Of a DNA stretch of 23,982 nt, positions 331-23,730 are shown in pieces. Origin of the DNA: a virus. The stretch lies in the IMG/VR virus record IMGVR_UViG_3300010885_035372, positions 1 to 23,982 of that record, one strand, 5' to 3'. The notes under the pieces are model-generated. The model saw nothing but the letters and a program-made list of their open reading frames with translations, did no database searches and was not told the origin of the DNA. The position numbers were made by a program, and so were the translations under genes. The stretch's first letter is position 1; each line of letters opens with the position of its first letter.

Positions 331-370
331 TCCGCCCCACTTTGACCCACTTCGCCCCACTTCGCCCCAC
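331..370. repeat. Four tandem 10-bp GC-rich repeats
   Basis: Four consecutive 10-bp units of form TYCGCCCCAC (the second diverged to TTTGACCCAC), ending in TTTT. They are conspicuously GC-rich inside an AT-rich stretch. The spacing is one helical turn. They lie about 200 bp upstream of the larger 10-bp array and may belong to the same cis-acting region. Confidence 0.75.
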
Positions 371-468
371 TTTTAACGCAAAAATAAAGCTTTTTCGCGT
401 CTAATAGATAGACATATTTATCATAAAAGTCTATTATAAGAATCTTTTTCTAGAAATTCCTTGTGTGA

Positions 469-553: not shown

Positions 554-573
554 TGTGAATAACTTGTGAATAA
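554..573. other. Two tandem DnaA-box matches
   Basis: TGTGAATAA occurs at 554-562 and 565-573, an 11-bp tandem. It is the reverse complement of the consensus DnaA box TTATNCACA. The second copy runs into the start of the 10-bp repeat array. Two exact matches in tandem beside AT-rich DNA and a direct-repeat array are typical of replication origins. Whether this phage uses host DnaA is not known. Confidence 0.5.
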
Positions 574-750
574 CTAGGAGTACTGGTGTGTGCTGAGGAA
601 TTACTAGAAATACAGAAAGATTACTAGAGATACAGAGAGATGGAGGGGATTACTGGGGAATTACTGGAAGTACTGAGATATACATGAAAGTACTTGGGAA
701 TAACAAAAGATTACTGGAGATACTGGGAGATAACTGGAAATAGTGAGGAA
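571..750. repeat. 18-unit array of degenerate 10-bp repeats
   Basis: From 571 to 750 the sequence divides into 18 contiguous 10-bp units with no slippage, each beginning with T and approximating TTACTGGAGA (for example TTACTAGAGA, TACAGAGAGA, TACTGGGAGA). The top strand is strongly purine-rich. The units are degenerate, but the 10-bp register is exact, putting every copy on the same face of the helix. No credible gene overlaps; the minus-strand frame at 650-838 is an artefact of the low-complexity sequence. Candidate origin, partition site or cooperative protein-binding array. Confidence 0.8.
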
Positions 751-1630: not shown

Positions 1631-1894
1631 ATGCAAACTATTATTCCTATGATTAGTAACATGACAAACTCTGGCGTCTTTATGAGCGAAGGGAACTTTA
1701 TTAGTTCTGATGTGGATGTGAGTATTAATGGTTCTGATAATACTATTAAATTAAGGTATCATGATAAGAACGGAGATATACATTTTAGTATTAAACACCT
1801 ATTAGAGGTGGAGTTCTTAAAAGATATGAATAACATTATAGATTCTGTTTTGTTTAAAGAAGGTATTGTTATTTGGGAAAACAACTTTTGTTAA
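1631..1894 (+). CDS. Small unknown protein
   Basis: 87-residue acidic protein with no recognised motif. The middle (VDVSINGSDNTIKLRYHDKN) alternates like beta strands and the C-terminal third looks helical (HLLEVEFLKDMNNIID), ending WENNFC. There is no signal peptide or membrane segment. It is preceded by copy 1 of the intergenic repeat and a sigma-70-like promoter that abuts the ATG. There is no ribosome-binding site, consistent with a leaderless transcript. The stop codon lies in the first of five GTTAAA-type repeats. Probably an early accessory gene; function unknown. Confidence 0.55.
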   Translation: MQTIIPMISNMTNSGVFMSEGNFISSDVDVSINGSDNTIKLRYHDKNGDIHFSIKHLLEVEFLKDMNNIIDSVLFKEGIVIWENNFC

Positions 1895-2055
1895 ACAGAA
1901 TTTGTTAAATAATTAATTTATTTTTTTTGTTTATTCCCGATTGGGAGTTTATTATGGTTTAATCTTAATTTGTTAAATCATTATTACCCGTCGGGAATTT
2001 GTTAAAAAGGTTTAAGTTAGTTATGTATATTCCGTGGTCAAGGTAATTGTTAAAA
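1886..2055. repeat. Five dispersed TTTGTTAAA repeats
   Basis: AATTTGTTAAA-type motifs at about 1886, 1899, 1967, 1996 and 2045, all on the same strand, in an AT-rich non-coding stretch. Between them are small dyads CCC-GATT-GGG (about 1937) and CCCGTCGGG (about 1987). No gene is visible from 1895 to 2374. Possible operator cluster. Confidence 0.5.
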
Positions 2056-2147
2056 ATCTTTTATTAATAAGTTCCTCGGGGTTTTATTAATTAAAAAAAG
2101 TTTGTTTTAGCGATTAAAAAGTTCTTGTTTTCTCTGGGTGCTGGGGA

Positions 2148-2225
2148 TACTCTGTACAGGGGAGAGTTCTGGAATGATTTTGGTTTTGGTTCAAAAAGGC
2201 GCAGTACTCTCCTGAGAACAGAGTA
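2148..2225. repeat. Paired 23-bp inverted elements, pair 1
   Basis: Two 23-bp elements, 2148-2170 and 2203-2225, in inverted orientation with 32 bp between. They match at about 17-18 positions. Each is itself a dyad of form ACTCT-N9-AGAGT. The right-hand unit is closely repeated at 4326-4348 and 7055-7077. All right-hand units lie upstream of sigma-28-like promoters, so an operator role is plausible. Confidence 0.7.
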
Positions 2226-2309
2226 ATCCCGAATTCGGGTGGCGTCGAGCAAAAACAAAAAAAATCTTTTTGCTAAAGTTTCCTCGGGAAAGATTCTCGA
2301 AAGTTTTTC

Positions 2310-2337
2310 TAAAGCGAAACGAGAAAACAGCCGAAAA
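2310..2337 (+). promoter_or_regulatory. Sigma-28-like promoter A
   Basis: TAAAGCGA-N12-GCCGAAAA, one base longer spacing than the other sites, preceded by CTCGAAAGTTTTTC as in site D. Predicted leader of about 30 nt to ATG 2375, A/C-rich, ending AACACC-ATG. Confidence 0.6.
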
Positions 2338-2374
2338 AGATAGTACGCAGTTAAAACCACAAATCAAAAACACC

Positions 2375-2701
2375 ATGACGACACTCCTTGAAACTCCAGA
2401 AATTCACCCGATCCTCGCCGCGAAGTTCCTAGAACTAGACGAACATTTTGCGGCATGGGAAGCCAAGCGGGAACTCTGGGCGGATCAGCAAGAAGAACTG
2501 GAAGCCCAGTTCGCCGAAAACTTCGGAGGCTTTGTGCAGGAGAACTTTGAAATCGTACAGGTTGAAAAGGTTTCCGAGCCTGCTCCTGAGCCCTCTCCTG
2601 AGCCTGAACCGGAGATTGTGGCAGAGGTTGTAGAAATCCCTGCTCCTGCTCCCAAGGCCAAGGCGAAAAAGAAATCCGCTCCCAAGAAGAAAAACTCCTA
2701 A
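2375..2701 (+). CDS. Small protein with Pro/Glu linker and Lys/Ala-rich histone-like tail
   Basis: 108 residues. Start chosen at ATG 2375 because the upstream extension in frame would run through promoter A. Three parts are visible: a helical, acidic N-terminal segment (about 1-65; ELDEHFAAWEAKREL, QQEELEAQF), a Pro-Glu linker (about 70-95; APEPSPEPEPE), and a C-terminal tail rich in Lys, Ala and Pro (APKAKAKKKSAPKKKNS). The tail resembles histone H1-like or other nucleic-acid-coating tails. It has its own sigma-28-like promoter and is GC-richer than the late genes. The stop codon is part of TAAAGTTT, a motif repeated after several genes here. A DNA-binding or bridging role is inference only. 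Confidence 0.7.
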   Translation: MTTLLETPEIHPILAAKFLELDEHFAAWEAKRELWADQQEELEAQFAENFGGFVQENFEIVQVEKVSEPAPEPSPEPEPEIVAEVVEIPAPAPKAKAKKKSAPKKKNS

Positions 2702-2774
2702 AGTTTCTTCGCAAGTCGCCCCTTCCCCAAAAGAGGGGGCGAAAGCGAGGTGAAAGAAAGATAAAAGAAATAGT

Positions 2775-2801
2775 TAAAGTTTCCTTGAGTTATTCCGATT
2801 A
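2775..2801 (+). promoter_or_regulatory. Sigma-28-like promoter B
   Basis: TAAAGTTT-N11-TCCGATTA: perfect -35 and spacing, -10 close to GCCGATAA. Drives the 2830 gene. Confidence 0.7.
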
Positions 2802-2829
2802 GAATAGTACAGTCAACCATCCTCATCTT

Positions 2830-3084
2830 ATGAACAACGTCCACGAATTCCTAAACAACGCAGTAAATTCTAATTTCATGTTTTCCAGCGGTGAAGACAA
2901 GGCTCAGGCCATTACACGAGGCAAGGATCTCATCACTCAGCAGATTTTTGAAGCCTTGCAGAAGCGTGATTTTGCGAAGTGGTTCGCTACCGGAGAGTGG
3001 GATGCCTTTATCTCAGCGGACGAAATGGCTCCCTCGGAGTCTGAAATCTTGGTGCAGATCAAAAATCTTTTCAAATTGAACTAA
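2830..3084 (+). CDS. Small unknown protein
   Basis: 84 residues, predicted mostly helical (VHEFLNNAVNSNFMF, KDLITQQIFEALQKRDFAKWF). No membrane segment, no cysteines and no recognised family. Promoter B sits about 28 bp upstream. The leader has no Shine-Dalgarno sequence. Its stop codon TAA is the first three bases of the -35 box of the next promoter (TAAAGTTT at 3082), so gene end and next promoter are fused. GC content is similar to the DUF932 gene that follows. Function unknown; likely an early accessory gene. Confidence 0.65.
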   Translation: MNNVHEFLNNAVNSNFMFSSGEDKAQAITRGKDLITQQIFEALQKRDFAKWFATGEWDAFISADEMAPSESEILVQIKNLFKLN

Positions 3085-3108
3085 AGTTTTCCAAAGTTTT
3101 TCCGATTA
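3082..3108 (+). promoter_or_regulatory. Sigma-28-like promoter C
   Basis: TAAAGTTT-N11-TCCGATTA, overlapping the stop codon of the preceding gene. About 42 nt from the end of the -10 box to ATG 3151, ending in A/C-rich sequence without a Shine-Dalgarno. Confidence 0.75.
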
Positions 3109-3150
3109 GTATAACAGTCAGTTAAATCCAACCCAAAAAAACCAAAACAT

Positions 3151-4161
3151 ATGGCACACCAAATCACCATCAATCAGAACGGCGAAGCAGAATTCTTTTG
3201 CGCGAAACATCAGGCATGGCATGGGCTCACCGAGCCTGTACCTCAGAATGTCACTTGGCAGGAAGCCAAGCGGATCTCAAAATTGAACTTCATTTACGAG
3301 GAAGTTCCCTGCTTCCATCAGTTGCCTGACGGACGTTTGCAGAAGATCGAAGGCAAAAAGGTCATCCGCCGCTCGGATACAGGCGAGGTGATGTCTGTAA
3401 TGGGCAGTAAATTCCGCTGTATTCAGGTTGACGAATTGATGGAGTTTGCGGATTCGATTGTGGGTTCTGGTCAGGCCGTCTGGAATTCCGCTGGCTCGCT
3501 CTTCGGAGGTCGCAGGATTTTTGCGAATCTTGAATTGGAAGGAAAATTGTTCGTCAATAATAATCCTGACGACACCACAACCAAGAATGTCATGGTGACA
3601 AATGCCAATGATGGCACAGGCGCATTGGTCATCATGGTCGCTGGCATCCGCACGGTTTGCTGGAATACCTGTAATGCGAACCTCAAGTCTGGATCAGAAA
3701 ACATGATCAAGATTTATCATCGCTCAGGGTTCGAGCGGCGCAAGCTGGATGCCCAGAAAGCCTTGGGTCTTGCTCTGGCTTACTACGACGAATTTCAGGA
3801 AGCAATGAATCAGCTTGCCGCCGATCAGGTTTCCTCTTCCTACGTCGAGGGGTTCATTAACGCCCTTATTCCCGCCGAGAAAGATGCTGATACTGGCAAG
3901 GTTGCCAAGCGCACCTTGGATCGGCGCGACCAGATTGACACCCTGTTCCGCACTGGCAAAGGCAACAACGGAGAAACAAAATGGGATTTGTTTAACGCCG
4001 TGACCGAGTACGTTGACCATCATTCCAACGGTCGCCTATCCAAGGAAACCAAGCTGGAAGGAAATGACGAGTTCTTCAAAATGGAACAAAGGTTCGACCG
4101 AGCCATCTTCGGGACTGGCGCAGTGCTGAAGCAGCGGGCAATGGATCTCCTCCTGAACTAA
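3151..4161 (+). CDS. DUF932 phage/plasmid-like protein
   Basis: 336 residues, matching the DUF932 family (phage/plasmid-like, TIGR03299) in length and layout. The N-terminus has the typical AWHGLTEPV segment (about 21-31). Then come VIRRSDTGEVMSVMGSKFRCIQ (about 70-92), a central Gly-rich region with GGRRIFANLELEG, a VMVTNANDGTGAL block, and the characteristic VCWNTCNANLKSG near residue 170. Proteins of this family are common in phages and conjugative plasmids; their biochemical role is not established. It has its own sigma-28-like promoter (C) and ends at a strong intrinsic terminator, so it is an independent transcription unit. The gene is about half G+C by eye, well above the late genes, suggesting acquisition from a GC-richer source. 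Confidence 0.85.
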   Translation: MAHQITINQNGEAEFFCAKHQAWHGLTEPVPQNVTWQEAKRISKLNFIYEEVPCFHQLPDGRLQKIEGKKVIRRSDTGEVMSVMGSKFRCIQVDELMEFADSIVGSGQAVWNSAGSLFGGRRIFANLELEGKLFVNNNPDDTTTKNVMVTNANDGTGALVIMVAGIRTVCWNTCNANLKSGSENMIKIYHRSGFERRKLDAQKALGLALAYYDEFQEAMNQLAADQVSSSYVEGFINALIPAEKDADTGKVAKRTLDRRDQIDTLFRTGKGNNGETKWDLFNAVTEYVDHHSNGRLSKETKLEGNDEFFKMEQRFDRAIFGTGAVLKQRAMDLLLN

Positions 4162-4171
4162 ACGCAAGAAC

Positions 4172-4209
4172 AAAACCCGCCCACACCGTAAAAAGTGTGG
4201 GCGGGTTTT
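4172..4209 (+). terminator. Intrinsic terminator after DUF932 gene
   Basis: 11-bp GC-rich stem (CCCGCCCACAC / GTGTGGGCGGG, 4176-4186 and 4195-4205) with an 8-nt loop, then TTTT pairing back with AAAA. Confidence 0.9.
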
Positions 4210-4237
4210 CTGTTTTCTTTAGCCGAAAGATTTTTTT

Positions 4238-4348
4238 CTTTTCGCTTGTTTCGGAAAAGTTTCGGGGATACTCTATTCACAGGAGAATTCTACAGATATT
4301 TCCCCGTGTTTTCCGAAACAAGAAAAGAACTCTCCTGTGAATAGAGTA
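4238..4348. repeat. Interlocked pair of long inverted repeats
   Basis: Inverted repeat 1: 4238-4258 pairs with 4309-4327 (19 bp with a 2-nt bulge), extended by CGGGGA 4263-4268 with TCCCCG 4301-4306. Its loop (4269-4300) contains element 4269-4291. That element is complementary at 22 of 23 positions to 4326-4348, which follows the stem directly. The order L1-L2-R1-R2 gives pseudoknot or mutually exclusive pairing. It lies in the gene-free stretch 4210-4524. The 23-bp element is also the ACTCT-N9-AGAGT dyad found at 2148-2225 and 7055-7077. Confidence 0.75.
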
Positions 4349-4393
4349 GTCTCGGCGCGATGAGATTACGAGCACAAAATAAAAAAAGATTTC

Positions 4394-4421
4394 GCTAAAG
4401 TTTTTTGGATTCAAGTTCTGT
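4394..4421 (+). promoter_or_regulatory. TAAAGTTT element with non-consensus -10
   Basis: TAAAGTTT-N11-GTTCTGTG followed by CCA. The same combination occurs at about 8179-8205. The -35-like half is perfect, but CCGA is missing. It may be a degenerate promoter or a different regulatory site. Confidence 0.3.
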
Positions 4422-4456
4422 GCCAGCTTCAGAGAAAAGATTCTCGAAACTTTTTC

Positions 4457-4483
4457 TAAAGAGAATCAGAAAACAGCCGAAAT
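4457..4483 (+). promoter_or_regulatory. Sigma-28-like promoter D
   Basis: TAAAGAGA-N11-GCCGAAAT, preceded by ATTCTCGAAACTTTTTC as in site A. Leader of about 35 nt ends CAACACC-ATG. Confidence 0.7.
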
Positions 4484-4524
4484 AATATGTACGGACGAGA
4501 AGTCCTAGCAACCCAACCAACACC

Positions 4525-4884
4525 ATGAAACACCAGATTCGTTCAACAGTAGTTTTCCTCGGCCAAGATTATGATCGCAACACCCAGTGGCTTTCACAGG
4601 CCAATAAATGGGCGGGAATTAATCGTATCGAGCGCACTCGCTACACCATCCGCCATGATGCAGAGGTGACCGTGGAAATGATCGCAGAAGATTGTTTCTG
4701 CGTGTTCAATGCTCCTGACGAGGCTTTGAGCGAAAACCAGCTTAGAAGGCGCGGAAACTACCGTGGCGTTTCGCTATCGGTGGGAGATATTGTTCAGATT
4801 TTCAGGAGCGGAGTCTTGGTCGCTGAAGCCCTGTGTGATTCTATGGGCTGGCAGATCCGAGACACGCTGGTCGAGATTTCCTAA
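4525..4884 (+). CDS. Unknown protein, YodL/LPD-like C-terminal motif
   Basis: 119 residues. The N-terminal half alternates beta-like strands (RSTVVFLGQDYD, RTRYTIRHDAEVTVEMIAED). The C-terminal half contains NYRGVSLSVGDIVQI (about 78-92), which resembles the GRSLSVGDVV block of YodL-like/LPD-type domains in phage and plasmid proteins, but I cannot confirm the family without a profile search. It starts after the A/C-rich leader of promoter D, with no Shine-Dalgarno. The stop is again embedded in TAAAGTTT. GC-richer than late genes. Function unknown. Confidence 0.65.
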   Translation: MKHQIRSTVVFLGQDYDRNTQWLSQANKWAGINRIERTRYTIRHDAEVTVEMIAEDCFCVFNAPDEALSENQLRRRGNYRGVSLSVGDIVQIFRSGVLVAEALCDSMGWQIRDTLVEIS

Positions 4885-4902
4885 AGTTTCACTAAAGTTT
4901 TC

Positions 4903-4938
4903 TCGCCCTCTGAAAATGGGGGCGGGAAAACTTTTCCC
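4903..4938 (+). terminator. Hairpins downstream of the 4525 gene (weak terminator)
   Basis: CGCCC/GGGCG hairpin followed by the perfect dyad GGGAAAA-C-TTTTCCC (4924-4938), then AAAGTTTTTC. The first resembles the terminator at 7644 but lacks its T-tract, so termination is probably partial. Confidence 0.4.
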
Positions 4939-4948
4939 AAAGTTTTTC

Positions 4949-4975
4949 TAAAGAGAATTAGTTTCCCGCCGAAAT
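4949..4975 (+). promoter_or_regulatory. Sigma-28-like promoter E
   Basis: TAAAGAGA-N11-GCCGAAAT, then AATAAGTAG. Upstream of the 5045 gene, together with an extended -10 site at 4999. Confidence 0.7.
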
Positions 4976-4998
4976 AATAAGTAGCCAGAAATAGCATG

Positions 4999-5007
4999 TG
5001 CTATACT
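4999..5007 (+). promoter_or_regulatory. Extended -10 promoter
   Basis: TG-C-TATACT, without a clear -35. Shares ATGTGCTATA with the site at 6512. It gives the 5045 gene a second, sigma-70-type start with a leader of about 30 nt. Confidence 0.45.
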
Positions 5008-5044
5008 GGTAGAGAAGAAAGAAACCACCCAAAAATCACACACC

Positions 5045-5398
5045 ATGCCCTTCCTCATCCATCCCCACCATCCCACCCTCGTCTGCTCTGGAAAAGACCC
5101 AATTTTTGGGTATCTCAATGCACTGCATCTGTGCCGCGAAATGATCGGCATGCACTCCGTGCAGATTTTGTTTGATAGCCGTCCAGTCTCAACGCCAGAG
5201 ATTTTTAATGAAATGCTGCGACCCTTCTGTGGTGTGTTCCCATCTGGTATGGATCGCGAGAGCATGCTGGACATTCTGGACACGCTTCTGGATTATGGGT
5301 GGATAAACAGAGAGCCAGCGGGGCTCAATCAGATGATGGCGGATTTTATAGACCTTATCGAGATGCGGGTCATGCTCGAAGAAGAAGAAGCCGTTTAA
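5045..5398 (+). CDS. Unknown protein
   Basis: 117 residues. The N-terminus is His/Pro-rich (FLIHPHHPTLVCSG). The remainder is acidic and probably helical (SMLDILDTLLDYGWI, MMADFIDLIEMRVMLEEEE). No membrane segment or known motif. Start at ATG 5045 is preceded by CACACC, the same SD-less context as the 2375 and 4525 genes. It has two candidate promoters (sigma-28-like E and extended -10) and ends just before a terminator hairpin at 5414, so it is its own unit. Function unknown. Confidence 0.65.
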   Translation: MPFLIHPHHPTLVCSGKDPIFGYLNALHLCREMIGMHSVQILFDSRPVSTPEIFNEMLRPFCGVFPSGMDRESMLDILDTLLDYGWINREPAGLNQMMADFIDLIEMRVMLEEEEAV

Positions 5399-5413
5399 AT
5401 CAAAACAGAATCT

Positions 5414-5450
5414 CTTTCGGGAAGAAGTTACTAATTCCCGAAAGTTTTTC
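5414..5450 (+). terminator. Intrinsic terminator fused to next promoter
   Basis: 10-bp stem CTTTCGGGAA/TTCCCGAAAG (5414-5423, 5435-5444) followed by TTTTTC. The next base begins the -35 box of promoter F. Confidence 0.75.
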
Positions 5451-5477
5451 TAAAGTTTCCCAACATTCAGCCGAATA
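5451..5477 (+). promoter_or_regulatory. Sigma-28-like promoter F, leaderless
   Basis: TAAAGTTT-N11-GCCGAATA: both boxes near-perfect. The -10 ends only 6 nt before ATG 5484, so the transcript should start at or within 1-2 nt of the start codon. Confidence 0.75.
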
Positions 5478-5483
5478 CTTATT

Positions 5484-5732
5484 ATGACCACCACCATATC
5501 CAATCTAGAAAAATTCAAAACAGAATTAGAATCTCAGTATGTCAGGCTTTTTGAAACTCCTGAATATGAATTCTCAGCTTCTAGGACTACTCCCAAAGCC
5601 TTGGCAGATAAAATGGTTTATAGTCTTAAAGTTAATGGAGCTAATAAAGATGGCAAAGGTATTAAGAATACCTGTAAAGTATTAGGAATTAAGAATACTT
5701 ATAAAGGAATCTCTGAATACCTTAATTCTTAA
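5484..5732 (+). CDS. Small unknown protein
   Basis: 82 residues, Lys/Asn/Thr-rich, with two halves: a helical N-terminus (NLEKFKTELESQYVRLF) and a C-terminal segment with the imperfect internal repeat IKNTCKVLG / IKNTYKGIS (about 62-78). No recognised domain. It is clearly AT-richer than its neighbours 2375-5398, yet has the same sigma-28-like promoter, so promoter type does not follow base composition. Probably co-transcribed with the SprT-like gene 15 bp downstream. Function unknown. Confidence 0.65.
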   Translation: MTTTISNLEKFKTELESQYVRLFETPEYEFSASRTTPKALADKMVYSLKVNGANKDGKGIKNTCKVLGIKNTYKGISEYLNS

Positions 5733-5747
5733 TTAATATTATATTCC

Positions 5748-6209
5748 ATGACTCAAGAAGAAGAATATTATGTTAACAAGACTAACAGTCTTCTGAAATA
5801 TTATAAGCTCAGAGGTTGGAGATGTCAATTAAATTCTTTGTCAAGGAATATTAATGGCAGATGTTATTATAACATTAAAGTTATAGAGCTATCTACATTT
5901 CTTATCCAGTACGGAGATGAGCATGAAATTAATGATGTTATATTCCATGAGATTGCTCATGCATTAACACCTAATCATGCACATGATGAAGTCTGGAGAG
6001 CTAAAGCAATAGAATTAGGTAGCAATGGAGAAAGATATTCCAGAGTGTTTGCACCTTATAAGTACACAGCAAAATGTAATATATGTAAAATGGTTTATGG
6101 TAGGAACAAACCTGCTCTTAAACCTCTGGTATGTTCCTTGTGCTTAAAGAATACTCATTATGATAACATGGATCGCATCATGCTCACGTTCCAGCGAACA
6201 AATCAATAG
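5748..6209 (+). CDS. SprT-like zinc metalloprotease
   Basis: 153 residues. Zinc-protease motif HEIAH at residues 67-71 (His67, Glu68, His71), third ligand candidates His77/His79 in NHAHDEVW, and a C-terminal zinc ribbon with Cys110-x2-Cys113 and Cys129-x2-Cys132. This order (HExxH, H-x3-W, four-Cys ribbon) is that of SprT/Spartan-like domains, which in eukaryotes cleave DNA-protein crosslinks. Phage copies are common, but their targets are unknown. It likely forms a two-gene operon with the 5484 gene. The C-terminal codons run into intergenic repeat copy 2, so the end of the gene has been fused to or overwritten by the repeat. Confidence 0.85.
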   Translation: MTQEEEYYVNKTNSLLKYYKLRGWRCQLNSLSRNINGRCYYNIKVIELSTFLIQYGDEHEINDVIFHEIAHALTPNHAHDEVWRAKAIELGSNGERYSRVFAPYKYTAKCNICKMVYGRNKPALKPLVCSLCLKNTHYDNMDRIMLTFQRTNQ

Positions 6210-6336
6210 TAAAATCGCGTGGTTATAATAAACGCGAAAATATAATAAACTCGTCACCTCGTCAAAAAAAGCTCACTTGTGCATACAAGCCTAGCGCGTG
6301 TACCCACAAGCCTAGCACATCCACGAGAGAGCTGGG
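6183..6336. repeat. Intergenic repeat, copy 2
   Basis: Tandem partner of copy 3 with an offset of 163 bp; also matches 1448-1590. Contains two ATAATAAAC(G/T)CG motifs and two CACAAGCCTAGC sub-repeats, ending CACGAGAGAGCTGGG. Its first 27 bp are the last codons of the SprT-like gene. Confidence 0.85.
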
Positions 6337-6345
6337 CGTATCACA

Positions 6346-6499
6346 CTCACATTCCAGCGAACAAGTCAATAGTAAAATCGCGTGTATATAATAAACGCGA
6401 GGATATAATAAACTCGTCACTTCGTCAGAAAAACCTCACTTGTACACACAAGCCTAGCGCGTGTACCCACAAGCCTAGCACATCCACGAGAGAGCTGGG
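6346..6499. repeat. Intergenic repeat, copy 3
   Basis: Nearly identical to copy 2. It ends just before the extended -10 promoter at 6512. A long open frame across copies 2 and 3 (6279-6587) is low-complexity translation of the repeat and not a gene. Confidence 0.85.
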
Positions 6500-8940: not shown

Positions 8941-10011
8941 TTAAATCACATCGTATAGTATCTCGCCTATGCAATTTTCTATGGCTTGATCTATTTGATC
9001 GGCTATATATTCCTCGATGTTTAATAGATTCCTTCGAGCTTGTTTAAGTTCGTGTAATCCCGGTGAATTATCAAATTCTTCTTTCGAATAGCGTTCATTT
9101 AAATCTTGGATAAAAATTTGTATAGTTTTTTCATCCATCATTTTATTAAAAGTTATTTTACCAGTCTGCATTAACTGAGCAACCAATTCTTCGTTTTTAT
9201 CGCTTACTACTAATTGACCATTTCTAGCCGATCCAAACGTAAATAATTTGGTATAGAAATTTTTTGGTTCTCTGTAGAATTTTTCTAGTCGATACAATTC
9301 TGTATCTTTAACTATACTCGTTAATACTGGAAAATCTTGTTCTCGGTTTTCAAGACTATGCCACATTCTTAATGATTCGTTGAAAAGTCCATAATATTCT
9401 TGTAATGTTTTAGAGATATTTTGATCAAATTGAAAATTCTTTTTATTATCTAGAATGGCATGTCCACATTTATGTGATCTTATCCACGAAGAAAATGCCA
9501 TCATGCCAGATCTTTCTTCTTGTCCAGAAGGAGTCATGATCACAGTAATTCCATTTGGATCGTGTAATTTTTCTCTAACTGTTGGATTATTATTAACTAA
9601 ATTTTCAAGATCACTTTTCTGTATTAGAGATTTGGTCTGGACATCATTATAATGATAATAACTTAATTGTTCTAAATTTGCGTCTACTAATCTCCATATT
9701 AAAGGTGATTTTCCTTGCATTTGTCTTCTTCTATCTAATCCCTTGGCTGTACCTCTGGATACTGTAGAACGCATTAAATCTTTTGCTTTTTCACTACCCC
9801 ATGCATTGATATCAGAACGAACAGATTTAGATATAGTTCCTAACATATGAGGTTGGGATCTTACTACGGGTTTGAACTTTGGATCTAGTTTACTAGTTAG
9901 TTCTGGATAATCTCCAAGAAATTCCAAACTAGCAGGCATTTCGGATAATATTTCAGATCTATTAAATATATCTTTTTTATATCTTTCCCAAATTAGCTGC
10001 TCGTCATTCAT
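8941..10011 (-). CDS. Zincin-like protein with altered HxxxH motif, paralogue of the 10370 gene product
   Basis: 356 residues. The N-terminus MNDEQLIWERYKK is a phage-type N-terminal motif. The core (about 155-295) aligns with the product of 10370-11143: SSWIRSHKCGHAI (His180, His184), then FTFGSARNG (about 257-265) and EELVAQLMQTGKITFN (Glu275). Spacing of HxxxH and a downstream ExxAQ helix recalls gluzincin/ImmA-like metallopeptidases, but Lys181 replaces the catalytic Glu of HExxH. So it is either an inactive protease fold, a metal-binding structural protein, or an unrelated domain. It ends with a long helical C-terminus. A TAAATA promoter lies 6 nt upstream of the ATG, overlapping the stop of the 10017 gene. 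Probably virion-associated. Confidence 0.7.
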   Translation of the reverse strand: MNDEQLIWERYKKDIFNRSEILSEMPASLEFLGDYPELTSKLDPKFKPVVRSQPHMLGTISKSVRSDINAWGSEKAKDLMRSTVSRGTAKGLDRRRQMQGKSPLIWRLVDANLEQLSYYHYNDVQTKSLIQKSDLENLVNNNPTVREKLHDPNGITVIMTPSGQEERSGMMAFSSWIRSHKCGHAILDNKKNFQFDQNISKTLQEYYGLFNESLRMWHSLENREQDFPVLTSIVKDTELYRLEKFYREPKNFYTKLFTFGSARNGQLVVSDKNEELVAQLMQTGKITFNKMMDEKTIQIFIQDLNERYSKEEFDNSPGLHELKQARRNLLNIEEYIADQIDQAIENCIGEILYDVI

Positions 10012-10369: not shown

Positions 10370-11143
10370 TTACATTAAAAATATTTTACCTACAGCCATT
10401 GATAGTATATCATCGAAATGATATTGCATTTGATTTCCTACTTCTTCTGCCACAAATTTATCTGGAACCGGATTAAAATTAATTGATCCAGTCATCATAT
10501 ATTGTGCAAAACATTCAAATATGAATTCATATGGTCTTGTTATCCTGTTCATTCTTGCGGATCTGAATGTTCCTAGCTTATGAAGCACCCTTCTTAAACT
10601 TTTTCTTTTCTCTGGATCATTAAAATAAGAGAAGTCTACGTTGTAATAATCTCTTAAATTACGATTTAAATCTTTTTCAAAATAATCCCATTTTTTATTG
10701 AATTCCACATTTCTTAATCTACTGCGATATAAAACATGTCCTATACGATGACAAATCATCCAAGGAGTTAAAGGAACCTTATCATCTCCTACATTGTTGG
10801 TAAAAACTATATTAATCGTATTCTCCATGTTGGGATTTTGTTCAATAACCGAAAAATCCACATCTGGTATTAATGTTTTAAGTGTTTCCACACTGATGAT
10901 GCCATATTCTCTGTGTTGTTGTGCTTTTTTTGATTTGGCGAAATAAAACGAAAAGTTATAATCTAAATCTTTAGCAATTTCTGCTTTTGCCTTCTGTAGA
11001 TATTTGTCGTTCGTCAATAATGCTATTGATGGCGCATCGTATTTTTGTTTCTTTTCTTTTTGTTTTGGATCAGTCCACCCAGAACCTATTGTCATGATTT
11101 CATCAACAGGTGCTTCAGTAAAGAATTGCTTAAAAGACTGCAT
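10370..11143 (-). CDS. Candidate internal head protein: capsid-targeting N-terminus plus zincin-like domain
   Basis: 257 residues. The N-terminus MQSFKQFFTEA closely matches the capsid-targeting sequence of T4 internal proteins (MKTYQEFIAEA in IPIII), which directs proteins into the prohead and is cut after Glu by the gp21 protease. The rest carries WMICHRIGHVLYRSR (His132, His136), GTFRSARMNR (191-200) and EFIFECFAQYMMTGSINFN (Glu206/Glu210), the same block as its paralogue at 8941. Arg133 replaces the catalytic Glu of HExxH. A packaged, injected protein with a protease-like fold is the suggested reading. First gene of a minus-strand late operon, with its late promoter inside a perfect palindrome shared with the divergent 11177 gene. 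Confidence 0.75.
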   Translation of the reverse strand: MQSFKQFFTEAPVDEIMTIGSGWTDPKQKEKKQKYDAPSIALLTNDKYLQKAKAEIAKDLDYNFSFYFAKSKKAQQHREYGIISVETLKTLIPDVDFSVIEQNPNMENTINIVFTNNVGDDKVPLTPWMICHRIGHVLYRSRLRNVEFNKKWDYFEKDLNRNLRDYYNVDFSYFNDPEKRKSLRRVLHKLGTFRSARMNRITRPYEFIFECFAQYMMTGSINFNPVPDKFVAEEVGNQMQYHFDDILSMAVGKIFLM

Positions 11144-11179
11144 GGGATTATTTAGATTTATATTATAAATAATCCCATG
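11141..11179. promoter_or_regulatory. Divergent late promoters inside a perfect 14-bp inverted repeat
   Basis: 11141-11154 and 11166-11179 are perfect reverse complements (14 bp each) with an 11-nt spacer. Each arm reads TAAATAATCCCATG outward: TAAATA, 5 nt, then the ATG of a gene with a capsid-targeting N-terminus. Promoter, predicted start point and start codon are thus duplicated as one unit. Confidence 0.8.
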
Positions 11180-11575
11180 TTCACCTTTAAACAGTTCTTT
11201 TTAGAAGCTATTAAACTCACTCCTTCAGATCACAAGATTGGTGAATATATTAAGATTGTTAATTCATGGGGTTATCCGAATCCATTTGAGCCCAATCTAT
11301 TCGTGATTGATAATTGTAATTTAAATCTACAAAACCATAGAAATAAAGCCCACATCTCTTTTATATAAGCCTTAGAAAAGAATAAAAGACACGGAACGAA
11401 TCTTATGAATCGTTTAATTCATCTGGCCGATGAGATGTCTGTGACTTTATCGCTTAATCCCGATCCAGTTGGTAATAATTCGATGCACTATAAAAAATTA
11501 ATCAAATGGTACAAAACTTTTGGTTTTGTTGGTAATCTAAGTGGTATGATCCGCGAACCTAAGATTAATAAGTAA
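11177..11575 (+). pseudogene. GNAT-like acetyltransferase with capsid-targeting N-terminus, interrupted by an in-frame TAA
   Basis: The frame opens with MFTFKQFFLEA (T4 IPIII-like capsid-targeting sequence) and stops at TAA 11366-11368 after 63 residues. Without a frame shift it then continues for another 68 codons to TAA 11573-11575. The downstream part (LEKNKRHGTNLMNRLIHLAD, then KKLIKWYKTFGFV) has the motif A/B layout of GNAT acetyltransferases. The break falls just before the acetyl-CoA-binding loop, in the middle of the conserved core, so a nonsense mutation (one base from AAA, CAA or GAA), readthrough or a sequence error must be considered. If intact, it would be a small acetyltransferase packaged into the head, analogous to T4 Alt in being injected with the DNA. 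The late promoter lies in the shared palindrome. Confidence 0.7.
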
Positions 11576-14873: not shown

Positions 14874-17177
14874 ATGATATTTAACGAACAAATTTCTGAG
14901 AAATCTAATAAAATGGAAAAGGAAATACAGGTCATAAAAAGGTCAAAAGAGAAGGTATCTTTTGATATCGGCAAGATAAACAAGATCGTTAAATGGGCTA
15001 ACGACGGCATCAAAGACGTGAGTCTTTCTGACATTGAAATCAATGCGAAGTTGAATATCCGTGACGGAATCACAACCGAAGAAATTCATCAAGTTTTGAT
15101 TGAATCCGCAGCTAATCTAATCACTATAGACACACCGAATTATCAATATGTTGCTGCTAGGCTTTTGACTTATCAACTCAGAAAAAATGTTTGGGGTGGT
15201 AAAAATCCACCAAAATTAATTGATATCATCAAAAAGAATATCAATCTGGGTGTATATACATCAGAAATTCTTGATCTGTATTCTGAACAAGAACTTAATA
15301 AAATTGACGAACTGATCGATCATGAACGTGATTTTATCTTTACATATGCTGGTATTAAACAATTGATCGATAAATATCTCGTCCAAAACAGAAAAACCAA
15401 AGAGATTTATGAAACTCCCCAGTTTGCATATATCTTAATTGCGGCTATTTCTTTCGCAAATTATCCAAAAGACAAAAGAATAGATTATGTAAAAAGAGCT
15501 TATAATTACTTTAGTAAACATAAGATTAATCTACCCACTCCAATCATGGCTGGGGTTAGAACTCCTCTAAAAAGCTTTGCGTCTTGTTTGCTTACTGGGG
15601 TGGCAGATTCCATGGAATCTATTTTGGCTAATGTTTCTATTATTGGACATGCTACTGCTAAAAGATATGGAATTGGTTTTAATTTCTCGCACATCAGAGC
15701 TATGGGAGCCCCCATCAGAAATGGGGATGTGATCCACACTGGAAAAATTCCATTTCTCAAAATATTTGAATCCACTGTAAAGAGTTGCCACCAAAACGGA
15801 ATCCGAGGAGGTTCTGCTACCACAACTGTGTTCATCTTTGATTATGAAATCGAAGATATTGTTGTTCTCAAGAATAATGCGGGCACTGAAGAGAATCGCG
15901 TCAGGAAACTAGATTATTCTATCGGCCTATCCAAGTTATTTTATCAGCGTTGGTTGAATAACGAAAAAATTACATTATTTTCTTCTCACGAATGTCCAGA
16001 TCTGTTTGAGAGTTTTGGTACTGATAAATTCGATGAGTTATATCAAAAATATGAAAACGACAAATCGATTAAATTCAAACGAACGATTTCTGCTAGAAAT
16101 TTGTTTGATTTAATTACTAAAGAGAGAATCGAGACTGGTCGCATTTATATTATAAATGTAGATAATGTAAATTCCCATTCGGGATGGCTAGATACCGTAC
16201 AAATGAGCAACCTTTGTCAGGAAGTGACACAACCAGTAATCCCGGCCAGATCTTTGCACGATGAAGATGCTGAAATTGGTATTTGTATTCTTGCTGCTAT
16301 AAATTGGCTTGAAATTTCTTCTGATTCTGAATTTGAAAAGGTATGTGATATAACTGTAAGGATGTTGGATGAAATTATTGATTATCAAGAATATTTTTGT
16401 CCCGCTGCTAAGAATTTCGCAACTAAACGAAGGAGTCTAGGTGTAGGCATAACTAATCTAGCTGCTTTACTAGCAAAGCATAATTTAAAATATGAAGATT
16501 CAGAAACTCCAAATTTCGTTTCTGAGATGATGGAAAAGCAACAGTATTTTCTTCTCAAATCTAGTTTAGAATTAGCAAAAGAAAAAGGTCGCTGCGAAAA
16601 GTTTGAAAGAACAACATATTCACAAGGATTACTCCCCATCGACCATTATAAGAAGGATAAATTAGATTCCATAGTAACTAGTCCGTTAAAAATGGATTGG
16701 GAACAATTAAGAAAAGATATTCTTCAATATGGATTGAGGCATTCCACATTAACTGCTCATATGCCTTGTGAATCTTCTTCTGTGATTCAAAATAGTACAA
16801 ACGGCATAGAACCCATTCGTAGTTTGATTACATATAAAAAATCAAAAGCTTCCACAGTTCCTGTAATCGCTCCAAGCGCAAACCAGTGGAAAAGTCGATA
16901 TACGATTGCTTTTGACATGAAAGATAACACTGGCTATCTTAATGTATGTGCGGCTATTCAGAAATTTACGGATATGGCAATGTCTATTAATATGTATTAT
17001 GATTATTCGCATTATCCCAATAAAATGATTCCACATTCAAAAGTAATCAAAGAAATGATGTATCATTATAGTTTGGGTGGTAAGACCATATATTACACTA
17101 ATACTAATGATAATGATAAAGAGCAATTAATGGATAAAGAATCCGACTCTTGCAGCTCTGGAGCTTGTTCAATTTAA
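14874..17177 (+). CDS. nrdA: Class Ia ribonucleoside-diphosphate reductase, large subunit
   Basis: 767 residues, normal for E. coli/T4-type NrdA. It reduces ribonucleoside diphosphates to deoxy forms, with NrdB supplying the radical. An N-terminal ATP-cone is visible (IQVIKRSKEKVSFDIGKINKIVKWA). Active-site cysteines are Cys238 in SCLLTG (E. coli Cys225), Cys448 in NLCQEV with Glu450 (Cys439/Glu441) and Cys471 in IGICILAAIN (Cys462). The MPCESSSVIQNSTNGIEP block is the E. coli-type substrate loop. The C-terminus ends SDSCSSGACSI, the swinging Cys pair reduced by thioredoxin/glutaredoxin. TIYYTN holds the radical-relay tyrosines. ATG 14914 (MEKEIQVIK) is an alternative start closer to the family N-terminus. 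nrdB follows after 4 nt. Confidence 0.97.
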   Translation: MIFNEQISEKSNKMEKEIQVIKRSKEKVSFDIGKINKIVKWANDGIKDVSLSDIEINAKLNIRDGITTEEIHQVLIESAANLITIDTPNYQYVAARLLTYQLRKNVWGGKNPPKLIDIIKKNINLGVYTSEILDLYSEQELNKIDELIDHERDFIFTYAGIKQLIDKYLVQNRKTKEIYETPQFAYILIAAISFANYPKDKRIDYVKRAYNYFSKHKINLPTPIMAGVRTPLKSFASCLLTGVADSMESILANVSIIGHATAKRYGIGFNFSHIRAMGAPIRNGDVIHTGKIPFLKIFESTVKSCHQNGIRGGSATTTVFIFDYEIEDIVVLKNNAGTEENRVRKLDYSIGLSKLFYQRWLNNEKITLFSSHECPDLFESFGTDKFDELYQKYENDKSIKFKRTISARNLFDLITKERIETGRIYIINVDNVNSHSGWLDTVQMSNLCQEVTQPVIPARSLHDEDAEIGICILAAINWLEISSDSEFEKVCDITVRMLDEIIDYQEYFCPAAKNFATKRRSLGVGITNLAALLAKHNLKYEDSETPNFVSEMMEKQQYFLLKSSLELAKEKGRCEKFERTTYSQGLLPIDHYKKDKLDSIVTSPLKMDWEQLRKDILQYGLRHSTLTAHMPCESSSVIQNSTNGIEPIRSLITYKKSKASTVPVIAPSANQWKSRYTIAFDMKDNTGYLNVCAAIQKFTDMAMSINMYYDYSHYPNKMIPHSKVIKEMMYHYSLGGKTIYYTNTNDNDKEQLMDKESDSCSSGACSI

Positions 17178-17181
17178 TAAT

Positions 17182-18249
17182 ATGAAAACTGTACTTAACG
17201 AAAAATTAGTTAATCCTTTGTCACAGCCATTGTTTTTGGGAGAACCTTTGGGATTACAAAGATACGATCTATTAAAATATCCAATCTTTGATGATCTTTA
17301 TCTTAAACAAGATGAATTTCATTGGAGACCTGAAGAAGTAACTCTTATTAAAGATAAGAGTGATTACCAAGAATTAACCGAATCCGAAAAATTTGTTTTT
17401 GATAGTAATATTCGGTTTCAAACTCTAGGTGATAGTATGTTGAGTAGAAGTATTCTATCTCTTAGAGAATTCGTATCAAATTCAGAATTAGAAGCCTGTA
17501 TGACCAAATGGGCTGATTTCGAAGTTATTCATTCTAGAAGTTATTCTTGGGTTTTTCGAAATCTATTCTCCAAGCCAGAAGAATTCTTCAATTCGATTTA
17601 TGCTGATAAAGAAATCATGAAACGAAAGGAATTAATTCGTTCTAATTACGATCAACTTCTTGGTGCTGATTCTAATTCAGAAGATATTAGAGATAAGATT
17701 TACAAGGCTATTTTATCAACAAATGTCATGGAAGGATTGGTTTTCTATGTTTCTTTTGCATGTTCATTTTATTTCGGATATCGCGGAAAGATGGAAGGAA
17801 ATGCTAAAATAATTAAACTGATTCAGCGAGACGAAGCACAACATTTTGCTATCACCCAAAATTTGATTAAAATTTTAAGAGACTCTCCAGATGAAGGATT
17901 TCAAGATGTTGCAAAAAAGCATGAAAATTTAGTTTATGACATCTATAACGAAGCCACCATGCAAGAAATTGAATGGGCGAAATATCTTTTCAGCAAAGGA
18001 AGCCTACTTGGATTAAACGAAGAATCTTTGTCTGGATATTGCAAATGGTTGGCTGATAACAGATTGAGGTCTTTGGGATATAAGAAGATCTTCAATCAAA
18101 AGGAAAATCCAATTTCTGGATGGTTAGATTCCTATATGGATTCCAGCAAAGTTCAAGTAGCTCCACAAGAAACAGAAATTTCTTCCTATAAGATAGGTGC
18201 TAGGAATACAGATATTAATGATAAAGAATTCGAGGGATTTAGTTTATGA
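17182..18249 (+). CDS. nrdB: Class Ia ribonucleoside-diphosphate reductase, small (radical) subunit
   Basis: 355 residues, typical for NrdB. All di-iron ligands are present: Asp84 (LGDSM), Glu114 and His117 (FEVIHSRSY), Glu184 (NVMEGLVFY), Glu218 and His221 (RDEAQH). The radical tyrosine is Tyr121 in HSRSY, so this is a conventional Fe/tyrosyl-radical class Ia enzyme. The FYVSFACSF and MEGNAKIIKLIQRDEAQH blocks match E. coli almost word for word. The C-terminus (DINDKEFEGFSL) is the tail that docks on NrdA. Cotranscribed with nrdA (4-nt gap). The HNH gene starts inside its stop (ATGA), a typical insertion point for homing endonucleases. Confidence 0.97.
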   Translation: MKTVLNEKLVNPLSQPLFLGEPLGLQRYDLLKYPIFDDLYLKQDEFHWRPEEVTLIKDKSDYQELTESEKFVFDSNIRFQTLGDSMLSRSILSLREFVSNSELEACMTKWADFEVIHSRSYSWVFRNLFSKPEEFFNSIYADKEIMKRKELIRSNYDQLLGADSNSEDIRDKIYKAILSTNVMEGLVFYVSFACSFYFGYRGKMEGNAKIIKLIQRDEAQHFAITQNLIKILRDSPDEGFQDVAKKHENLVYDIYNEATMQEIEWAKYLFSKGSLLGLNEESLSGYCKWLADNRLRSLGYKKIFNQKENPISGWLDSYMDSSKVQVAPQETEISSYKIGARNTDINDKEFEGFSL

Positions 18250-22656: not shown

Positions 22657-23730
22657 TTAAATTGTACCGGGCAATGTAGCACCTATAGTTTTATAGCCGT
22701 GTTCAATTCCTTTCGCCACTCCCATGGCACCAGAGTTAAGAGAAGCTGCTGCATTACGCATGGATTCATTTCCATTCGTAAATGAGATTGGAACATTATT
22801 GAATGGGTGTTGATGTGGATAGACGAATATAGAATAAGTTGGATTTGGTCGTACTCCATCATTTCCAATACTTGATGCTAAATCAGTACCTCCTTTTTCT
22901 AAAACTAAAACTGGAACTTTTGCAGGTCTAGACCAAGAGGATTTAGGCGCACTTATACTATTATATAAATCTCTAATATAACTAACATCAGCCCATGCTA
23001 TAACTGTAGTTCCTCCACCCCCTCCTTTATCAGTTCCTGTTGGACCCGAAGCTGTCATAAGCTGACCGAATGCTCCAATACCACCACCAGTATATTGTAC
23101 TTCCGCAGGACAGGTTATATGATTTACATATAATTCACCATCAACAAATGCACATCCATTAATAATTGCATTTTTAGCAACACCCAAATTCGAATTTACT
23201 ACAACTTGATTTGGGCATTCTAAATTCATAGAATCTCCATATAAAGATACATTTGAACCAGCAGCAATATTAACATTTCCGTTCGAAGACATATACAATT
23301 CTTCCACCGAAGAAATGTCGGTTCTTCCTTTTGCACCAATTTTTGTATTACCAGCCGTAGCCATTCCGATGCCACCAGCTCCTACCGAAAGATCATAATT
23401 ATTACCTACATTTAAAGAATATGTACCACATGGAAAACGAGTATTTTCCACAGCTTCGATATAAGGTACTGGTTCATTTTTAACAAAAGATCCTTTACCT
23501 TCGATATCCACAGATTTAGGACGAAATTCTCCTTGAGCATCTGTTCTTGTTGACGGAAATGTATTTACAACAGAGCCTACATGTTCTTGCTTATGTTTTT
23601 CATAAGTAATTTGTTGTGTTCCACCAGCTTTTATACTTTCTTCAATTGGTAATAAATTTTCTTGTACTTTTTTTAGTACATCAGCTTGATTGGATTTATC
23701 AAATTGCTGAGTGATTTTAACATCTGCCAT
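22657..23730 (-). CDS. Baseplate/tail structural protein
   Basis: 357 residues. A polar N-terminus (ITQQFDKSNQADVLKKVQENL, about 5-25). Then a long middle (about 95-225) of short strands with Gly/Asn turns: CGTYSLNVGNNYDLSVGAGGIGMATAGNTKIGA, VEELYMSSNGNVNIAAGSNVSLYGDSMNLE, VVVNSNLGVAKNAIINGCAFVDGELYVNHI, the pattern of beta-helical spike/fibre proteins. It is followed by a Gly-run GTDKGGGGGTTV (about 235-246) and a C-terminal domain with YSIFVYPHQHPFNNVPISF (His-x-His, about 303-321). This matches baseplate hub/spike-type proteins of T4-like phages in style; the exact gene equivalence is uncertain. Late promoter 5 nt upstream of ATG 23730. Confidence 0.7.
   Translation of the reverse strand: MADVKITQQFDKSNQADVLKKVQENLLPIEESIKAGGTQQITYEKHKQEHVGSVVNTFPSTRTDAQGEFRPKSVDIEGKGSFVKNEPVPYIEAVENTRFPCGTYSLNVGNNYDLSVGAGGIGMATAGNTKIGAKGRTDISSVEELYMSSNGNVNIAAGSNVSLYGDSMNLECPNQVVVNSNLGVAKNAIINGCAFVDGELYVNHITCPAEVQYTGGGIGAFGQLMTASGPTGTDKGGGGGTTVIAWADVSYIRDLYNSISAPKSSWSRPAKVPVLVLEKGGTDLASSIGNDGVRPNPTYSIFVYPHQHPFNNVPISFTNGNESMRNAAASLNSGAMGVAKGIEHGYKTIGATLPGTI

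Follow-up and report, generated by a model that had tools for sequence, protein, structure and literature searches.

In the window, by which we mean the whole 23,982-base stretch analysed (G000, a single virus record and a fragment of an uncultivated phage), an array of 19 ten-base units was found at 562–751 on the plus strand. The array spanned 190 bp, each unit had ACT as its core, followed by a tract of purines, and a T was present every ten bases at all 19 positions (571, 581 and so on to 751). What was observed directly is the pattern itself, how far it extends, how strong it is statistically and how rare it is among the sequences compared. A constrained role for the array is favoured, short of proof. 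We propose, with moderate confidence, that the array might be a platform of tandem sites, operator- or iteron-like, for an oligomeric DNA-binding protein.

The initial annotation counted 18 units. The segment 572–751 did divide into 18 ten-base units without slippage, but the array was one unit longer at its left end, where 562–571 scored as a unit even though it was absent from the matrix (0.15% of background 10-mers equalled its score). The unit-matrix score dropped sharply just outside 562–751 on both sides. A further unit, weak and shifted by one base from the register, was located outside the array at 551–561 on the plus strand (matrix score 4.84; 0.6% of background 10-mers were as high). 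The 10-bp autocorrelation check, performed over 576–750, confirmed that the periodic array was real: the identity was 0.485 at lag 10 and 0.561 at lag 20, which was 5.4 and 7.2 standard deviations (Z) above shuffles. The Z-scores at lags 30 and 40 were 3.7 and 5.2, so that lags 20 and 40 both exceeded lag 30, and none of 2000 dinucleotide shuffles attained the array identity at lag 10, 20, 30 or 40. Counted from 572, the register T was invariant in 18 of 18 units, while no column reached more than 15 in any of 5000 base shuffles.

The register was described earlier as exact, which was true of the T, the purine tract and the total pitch, but the ACT core wobbled by one base. It occurred at either of two offsets (TTACT or TACT), with steps of mostly 9, 10 or 11 bases and a total pitch of 10; a longer TTACT/TAACT head was mostly offset by a shorter purine tract, so the total pitch was kept. 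At unit positions 5–9 a purine was found in 86 of 90 cells, with A and G mixed. The mean pairwise identity of the units was 0.51, compared with 0.30 by chance, and the divergence between units was ~0.83 substitutions per site. Transitions were in excess, with 175 A/G and 24 C/T among the 361 differing pairs in the 20-bp columns of the array. The order of the unit types was no simple alternation, and the stretches 90 bp apart were the most alike (lag-90 identity 0.63).

According to the ORF list, the array was situated in a spacer of 627 bp (266–892), where an open frame resembling a restriction endonuclease ends on one side, as assigned by a weak PHROG match (E 0.0011), and an HNH endonuclease gene, also assigned by PHROG match, lies on the other. 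The genes on both sides pointed in the same direction, with no strand switch. The G+C content was 38% in the array, against 23% at 373–553 and 752–892, so the spacer was AT-rich as previously noted. No candidate binding protein was recognised beside the array among the ten left-end proteins scanned, and to the left of the array only ~560 bp of the fragment are left.

The relatives came from a search with the protein encoded at 22660–23730 of the window, which matched 11 loci in IMG/VR; several queries against viral_contigs and one against phages yielded no relative. Locus L003 (IMGVR 3300009158, 8,465 bp) encoded a protein identical to this one. Another of the 11 loci belonged to a record of 236,391 bp (G006), the first 50 bases of which were found again at 236245, and the record therefore looks complete. 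It encodes a T4-type DNA polymerase, a gp46-like protein, a late sigma factor, a Dda-like protein, a terminase and a tail sheath, and this gene set indicated that G006 is a T4-like phage. The window genes at 1631–6206 corresponded, in diverged form, to 23.5–28.7 kb of G006, and those at 12.6–24 kb corresponded mostly to 52–63.5 kb. The DUF932 proteins of the window and G006 shared 47% identity, and G006 is not a close relative. The ribonucleotide reductase of the fragment was nearest to those of cyanophage myoviruses (~51%). The nrdA/nrdB genes (14874–18249) were 100% identical to those of L003 and ~56% identical to those of G010, and the nrdA match in G006 was only 24%; judged by these identities, the ribonucleotide reductase differs between relatives.

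Several further repeats were observed in the window. A 163-bp tandem repeat (91%) was located at 6174–6336 and 6337–6499, a 107-bp part of it was found again at 1475–1581 (83–86%), and a 51-bp piece matched G006 at 41971–42021 (78%); this tandem repeat (6174–6499) is possibly a phage promoter or leader. Another repeat of ~60 bp (78–88%) was present at 2289–2347, 4436–4493 and 4926–4983, amid small genes, and is perhaps a shared leader. In addition, the proteins at 10370–11143 (minus strand), 11177–11368 and 8941–10011 (minus strand), and one at 668–1090 of L026, had alike short N-terminal motifs but were otherwise different. The shared starts were MQSFKQFFTEA, MFTFKQFFLEA and MNDEQLIWERYK, with MNDERLIWEAYK in G006, and such short starts could be targeting or cleavage leaders.

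The array was rare among the sequences compared. A period scan covered 135 records (1,947,096 bases including overlaps, a total to which the window and two duplicates of its left-hand end contributed). The period-10 score of the window was 0.216, the next best was 0.145 (L128), and no similar array was found in these records besides the window. Two degenerate unit patterns both gave 0 matches in viral_contigs, and one pattern gave two chance single matches but no array in genome_contigs. The array was found nowhere in the 236-kb relative. A blastn search of the array against phages gave no match at 1e-5, with only chance matches of 20–40 bases at E up to 10, and the best match among plasmids was inside an NTTRR-F1 gene (E 0.04). 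A further pattern, TACTGGN{3,5} ×3, hit at least 120 stretches in viral_contigs, and the matches listed were 24 bases long, that is, in 9-bp steps as in coding repeats. Thus, as far as searched, the array was confined to one fragment.

It was initially suggested that two tandem DnaA boxes lead into the array and that the region resembles a DnaA-type origin. The word TGTGAATAA was indeed present at 554–562 and 565–573 as an 11-bp tandem, but both boxes belonged to the array. The second one, which reads TTATTCACA on the minus strand (565–573), was part of the units at 562 and 572. Moreover, 13 of the 16 bases of 561–576 agreed with 691–706, a stretch of the array proper, in the same register, and no other match in the window was better; the putative box at 565–573 was therefore no separate element. 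The copy at 554 was an 11-bp duplication of the copy at 565–573 with a weak unit score; it was contained in the outlying unit at 551–561, and its end reached 562. These two were the only boxes, so there was no DnaA-box cluster distinct from the background. Sites near to the DnaA consensus (two or fewer mismatches to TGTGNAWAA) were depleted in the array, with one in 572–760 against 4.4 expected. The DnaA domain PF00308 was found in none of five related records, and its control was positive in 13 of 14 genomes.

Base composition did not point to an origin here either. The GC skew showed no sign change at 0–2 kb within the window, which is an incomplete genome. In G006 the main skew switches were near 60–64 kb and 96–100 kb, and not at 22–28 kb, the place of the left genes of the window. 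No array was found at this matching 22–28 kb region, although G006 is not close and nothing there aligns with the spacer. Judged by the refuting condition set with the initial suggestion (skew extremes far from the site and no array at the syntenic position in relatives), these results spoke partly against it. The replication genes of G006, of those scanned, were at 102–113 kb, again with no array. An origin of the bacterial oriC kind, with host DnaA loaded on the tandem pair of boxes and unwinding the DNA adjacent to the array, would fit the consensus-like boxes at 11-bp spacing and the AT-rich flanks (23% G+C on both sides, yet the left end of the window is ~30% as a whole). Set against the identity of the boxes with array units, the depletion of DnaA-like sites, the lack of a DnaA domain in the five records, the T4-type replication genes in G006 and the position of its skew switches, this reading of 554–573 and the array was largely refuted, and we regard it as highly improbable.

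The spacer contained a second 10-bp tandem element, four copies of CGCCCCACTT at 333–372 (minus strand), detected by TRF and by repeat search. It included a minus-strand G-quadruplex motif at 335–368, the only canonical one in the window and 11 relatives scanned, and in one wedge model the predicted curvature of 150-bp segments peaked in the window at the segment starting at 301, over these decamers. Two exact copies of CGCCCCACTT, with the same 10-bp step, were found in a G006 spacer at 40582–40602. When two mismatches were allowed, the decamer pattern was found in 1 of 18 records, namely G006, where one site was exact and another was at the two-mismatch limit. Kinship of the decamer to the array unit was rejected, as 1940 of 2000 shuffles scored as well, and the two elements therefore need not share a protein. 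The G006 spacer at 40321–40667 showed a lag-10 excess that was equalled by 0.05% of the 347-bp windows of G006, and it contained eight ACTA words at phases 8, 9 and 1 of 10. This spacer was examined after the shared decamer pointed there, with bounds chosen by us, and another G006 stretch (46215) scored above it with no array to be seen; the best lag-10 spacer of G006 (46224–47274) likewise contained no array on reading. We take this as a hint, not proof, that a 10-bp pitch may matter in the spacers of these phages.

The palindrome at 469, mentioned with the supposed origin, was perfect: it was a 17-bp operator-like element, GTTTTACTGAGTAAAAC, located at 469–485 by direct reading and absent from the 11 relatives searched. 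It adjoined an imperfect AT-rich palindrome at 496–519, which was detected by repeat search and had overlapping 15-nt arms that were 87% complementary. A 22-bp piece of the 496–519 region matched G006 at 98466–98487 (95%). A promoter-like site was located at 409–437 on the plus strand, but the consensus scan gave a total of 14 such sites where 7.6 were expected, so the single site means little.

Coding and RNA explanations of the periodicity were considered as well. A protein-coding repeat was rejected: no plus-strand frame of 60 aa extended across the array, and the 30-bp period was weaker than those of 20 and 40 bp. One minus-strand frame of 62 aa overlapped 650–751, and there was no other sign of a gene. 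A structured RNA was rejected too, because neither strand of the array folded beyond shuffles (z −0.34 and 0.37), and no Rfam match or tRNA was found. GGA occurred 11 times in the array (5.9 expected), and 10 of 1000 shuffles had as many. A leader RNA rich in purines, with GGA many times over, could titrate an RNA-binding regulator such as CsrA, in which case the transcript would matter, and the GGA count agrees with this. Against it, several units were without GGA, ANGGA, the CsrA motif, was not enriched, with one occurrence against 2.4 expected, no stable fold was found, and RNA does not need an exact 10-base pitch. Such an RNA sponge is thus hardly probable.

Selection for helical phasing was another claim made for the array. 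The helical repeat of free B-DNA is ~10.5 bp, against which a pitch of 10.0 drifts. Intrinsic curvature of the array was rejected: under two wedge models the stretch 596–745 ranked 1426th and 691st among 2384 windows. With this drift and an ordinary predicted curvature, the case for helical phasing is weak, while a cis-acting array under selection for spacing remains plausible. A pitch unlike that of B-DNA without unusual curvature fits a lattice of bound protein, or a minisatellite of some age, better than intrinsic phasing.

Here, two main explanations were weighed. The second of these, a neutral or nearly neutral minisatellite, is possible but doubtful to us: slippage or unequal exchange would have multiplied a 20-bp seed in 10-, 20- and 40-bp steps, the copies would then have decayed by substitution, mostly transitions, and it would bind nothing particular. 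Stepwise 20-bp duplication is expected to raise lags 20 and 40 above lag 30, as was seen, and the likeness of stretches 90 bp apart, the transition excess, which mutation alone can produce, and the failure to find the array in the relatives searched all agree with it. However, T never changed to C in 18 units despite the free interchange of A and G, the unit types did not simply alternate, and no net indel was present at the divergence given above. On a star tree the last point amounts to ~75 substitutions over the array, which would be hard for neutral decay under the indel rate assumed. The platform explanation is supported by the 10-, 20- and 40-bp periodicity, by the T and the purines being kept while A and G interchange freely, by a total pitch held in spite of the wobbling core, by the sharp edges at 562 and 751 and the non-coding nature of the array, by the second 10-bp element of the spacer that recurs, exactly spaced, in a G006 spacer with a lag-10 excess of its own, and by precedents in the 10-bp repeats of pSK41 and the 12-nt repeats of T4 oriE. 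Against it, no relative had an array of like sequence in viral_contigs, genome_contigs or G006, no candidate binding protein was identified beside the array, and duplications in 10- and 20-bp steps alone can keep the register. In addition, the C-decamer is unlike the array unit, and the lag-10 signal in G006 was found post hoc and outscored by the array-less stretch 46215.

Two sub-cases of the platform were distinguished by role. An iteron-type phage origin, as suggested for T4 oriE, would use a phage protein and an early transcript and no DnaA. The regular spacing of direct repeats in what is a T4-like phage, the AT-rich flanks, the promoter-like site at 409–437 and the oriE precedent (PMC3016281) are consistent with it, but the genes do not switch strand at the array, neither the main compositional switches nor the scanned replication genes of G006 coincide with the matching genes or with an array, and the role of the oriE repeats is itself unproven. 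An origin role for the array is possible without support from composition, and this iteron-type form of it seems to us rather unlikely. A partition centromere, parC- or tubC-like, which was the alternative offered initially, would serve a plasmid-like phase. The 10-bp pitch is compatible with it, and the description of pSK41 parC (PMC4911067) agrees with the array in pitch and in its continuous layout, but the fragment offers nothing else in its favour. G006 has a T4-like gene set, and no gene for a centromere-binding protein or motor was recognised adjoining the array among the ten left-end proteins. The StbA_N/ParM family (PF06406) was found in none of five related records, which is weak evidence since the control was silent too. 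We consider a centromere very unlikely. Within the platform explanation, operator or early-gene control and an origin are about even, and partition is least likely.

Protein binding, packing and role are what we infer for the platform. About 19 weak sites, one per 10 bp, would be offered to an oligomeric protein of the phage or host. A protomer or dimer would read the T and the ACT core and accept either purine in the following tract, and neighbours would pack side by side, probably as pairs per 20 bp. Because the pitch of 10.0 is shorter than the ~10.5-bp turn, the protein chain would follow a slow spiral around the DNA, which would thereby be bent as a shallow superhelix, with approximately one turn over 190 bp. 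The platform might then control starts in the spacer, either early transcription into the right-hand genes or iteron-type replication. A wider speculation, to which we give little credence, is that this group of uncultured T4-like phages uses spacer platforms of exact 10-bp pitch loaded by a phage filament, which would start replication or early transcription without DnaA. The pitch would be conserved while the unit sequence drifts, as between the 19 purine-tract units and the C-rich decamers shared with G006. If the pitch and not the sequence is conserved, similarity searches would miss such platforms.

The array bears on where and by what means replication starts in T4-like phages other than T4, and on whether oriE-like repeat clusters have any function. 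A non-coding array with an unambiguous pitch is a small DNA probe that could be used to fish for a binding protein, and separating pitch from sequence would make a clean test. If the array is only an old minisatellite, it serves as a warning that register alone is no proof of selection.

Among known systems, bacterial oriC resembles the region in its AT-rich spacer and its TTATTCACA words at 11-bp spacing. However, these words are array units here, no more DnaA boxes were present, and the relatives had no DnaA domain. The unit of the Omega/parS sites of plasmid pSM19035 is 7 bp. These sites resemble the array as runs of tandem iterons: there are 7–10 of them near promoters, and the protein winds on them as a left-handed helix (PMC5016525). 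They differ in that they overlap promoters from which the plasmid expresses its own genes for copy number and maintenance. In T4 oriE, evenly spaced 12-nt repeats have no proven function, and they recur at syntenic places in close relatives (PMC3016281). Among phages oriE is the nearest precedent: both it and the array are clusters of short direct repeats at even spacing, and both belong to T4-like phages. In contrast to oriE, it has a unit of 10 instead of 12 nt, is non-coding where oriE is annotated inside gene 5, shows no gene-strand switch, and had no syntenic counterpart in the relatives searched, of which G006 is not close. A strong 24-bp coding period (81/120 at lag 24) was observed in T4 gene 5 near the annotated oriE (L255, T4 75.5–81 kb; ~79414–79550 of the record). 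The 12-nt oriE iterons may coincide with this coding repeat. The array also resembled parC of the type II partition system of plasmid pSK41, which likewise consists of continuous 10-bp direct repeats, and its unit length is within the 10–12 bp of the tandem iterons of type II/III centromeres; the likeness is one of layout, and the array is in a phage, where neither a centromere-binding protein nor an actin-like motor was seen next to it. In pSK41, ParR recognises successive direct repeats of 10 bp (PMC4911067) and assembles on them as dimers-of-dimers in a superhelix (PMC4911067; PMC5016525), and this is a worked example of the protein lattice proposed for the array.
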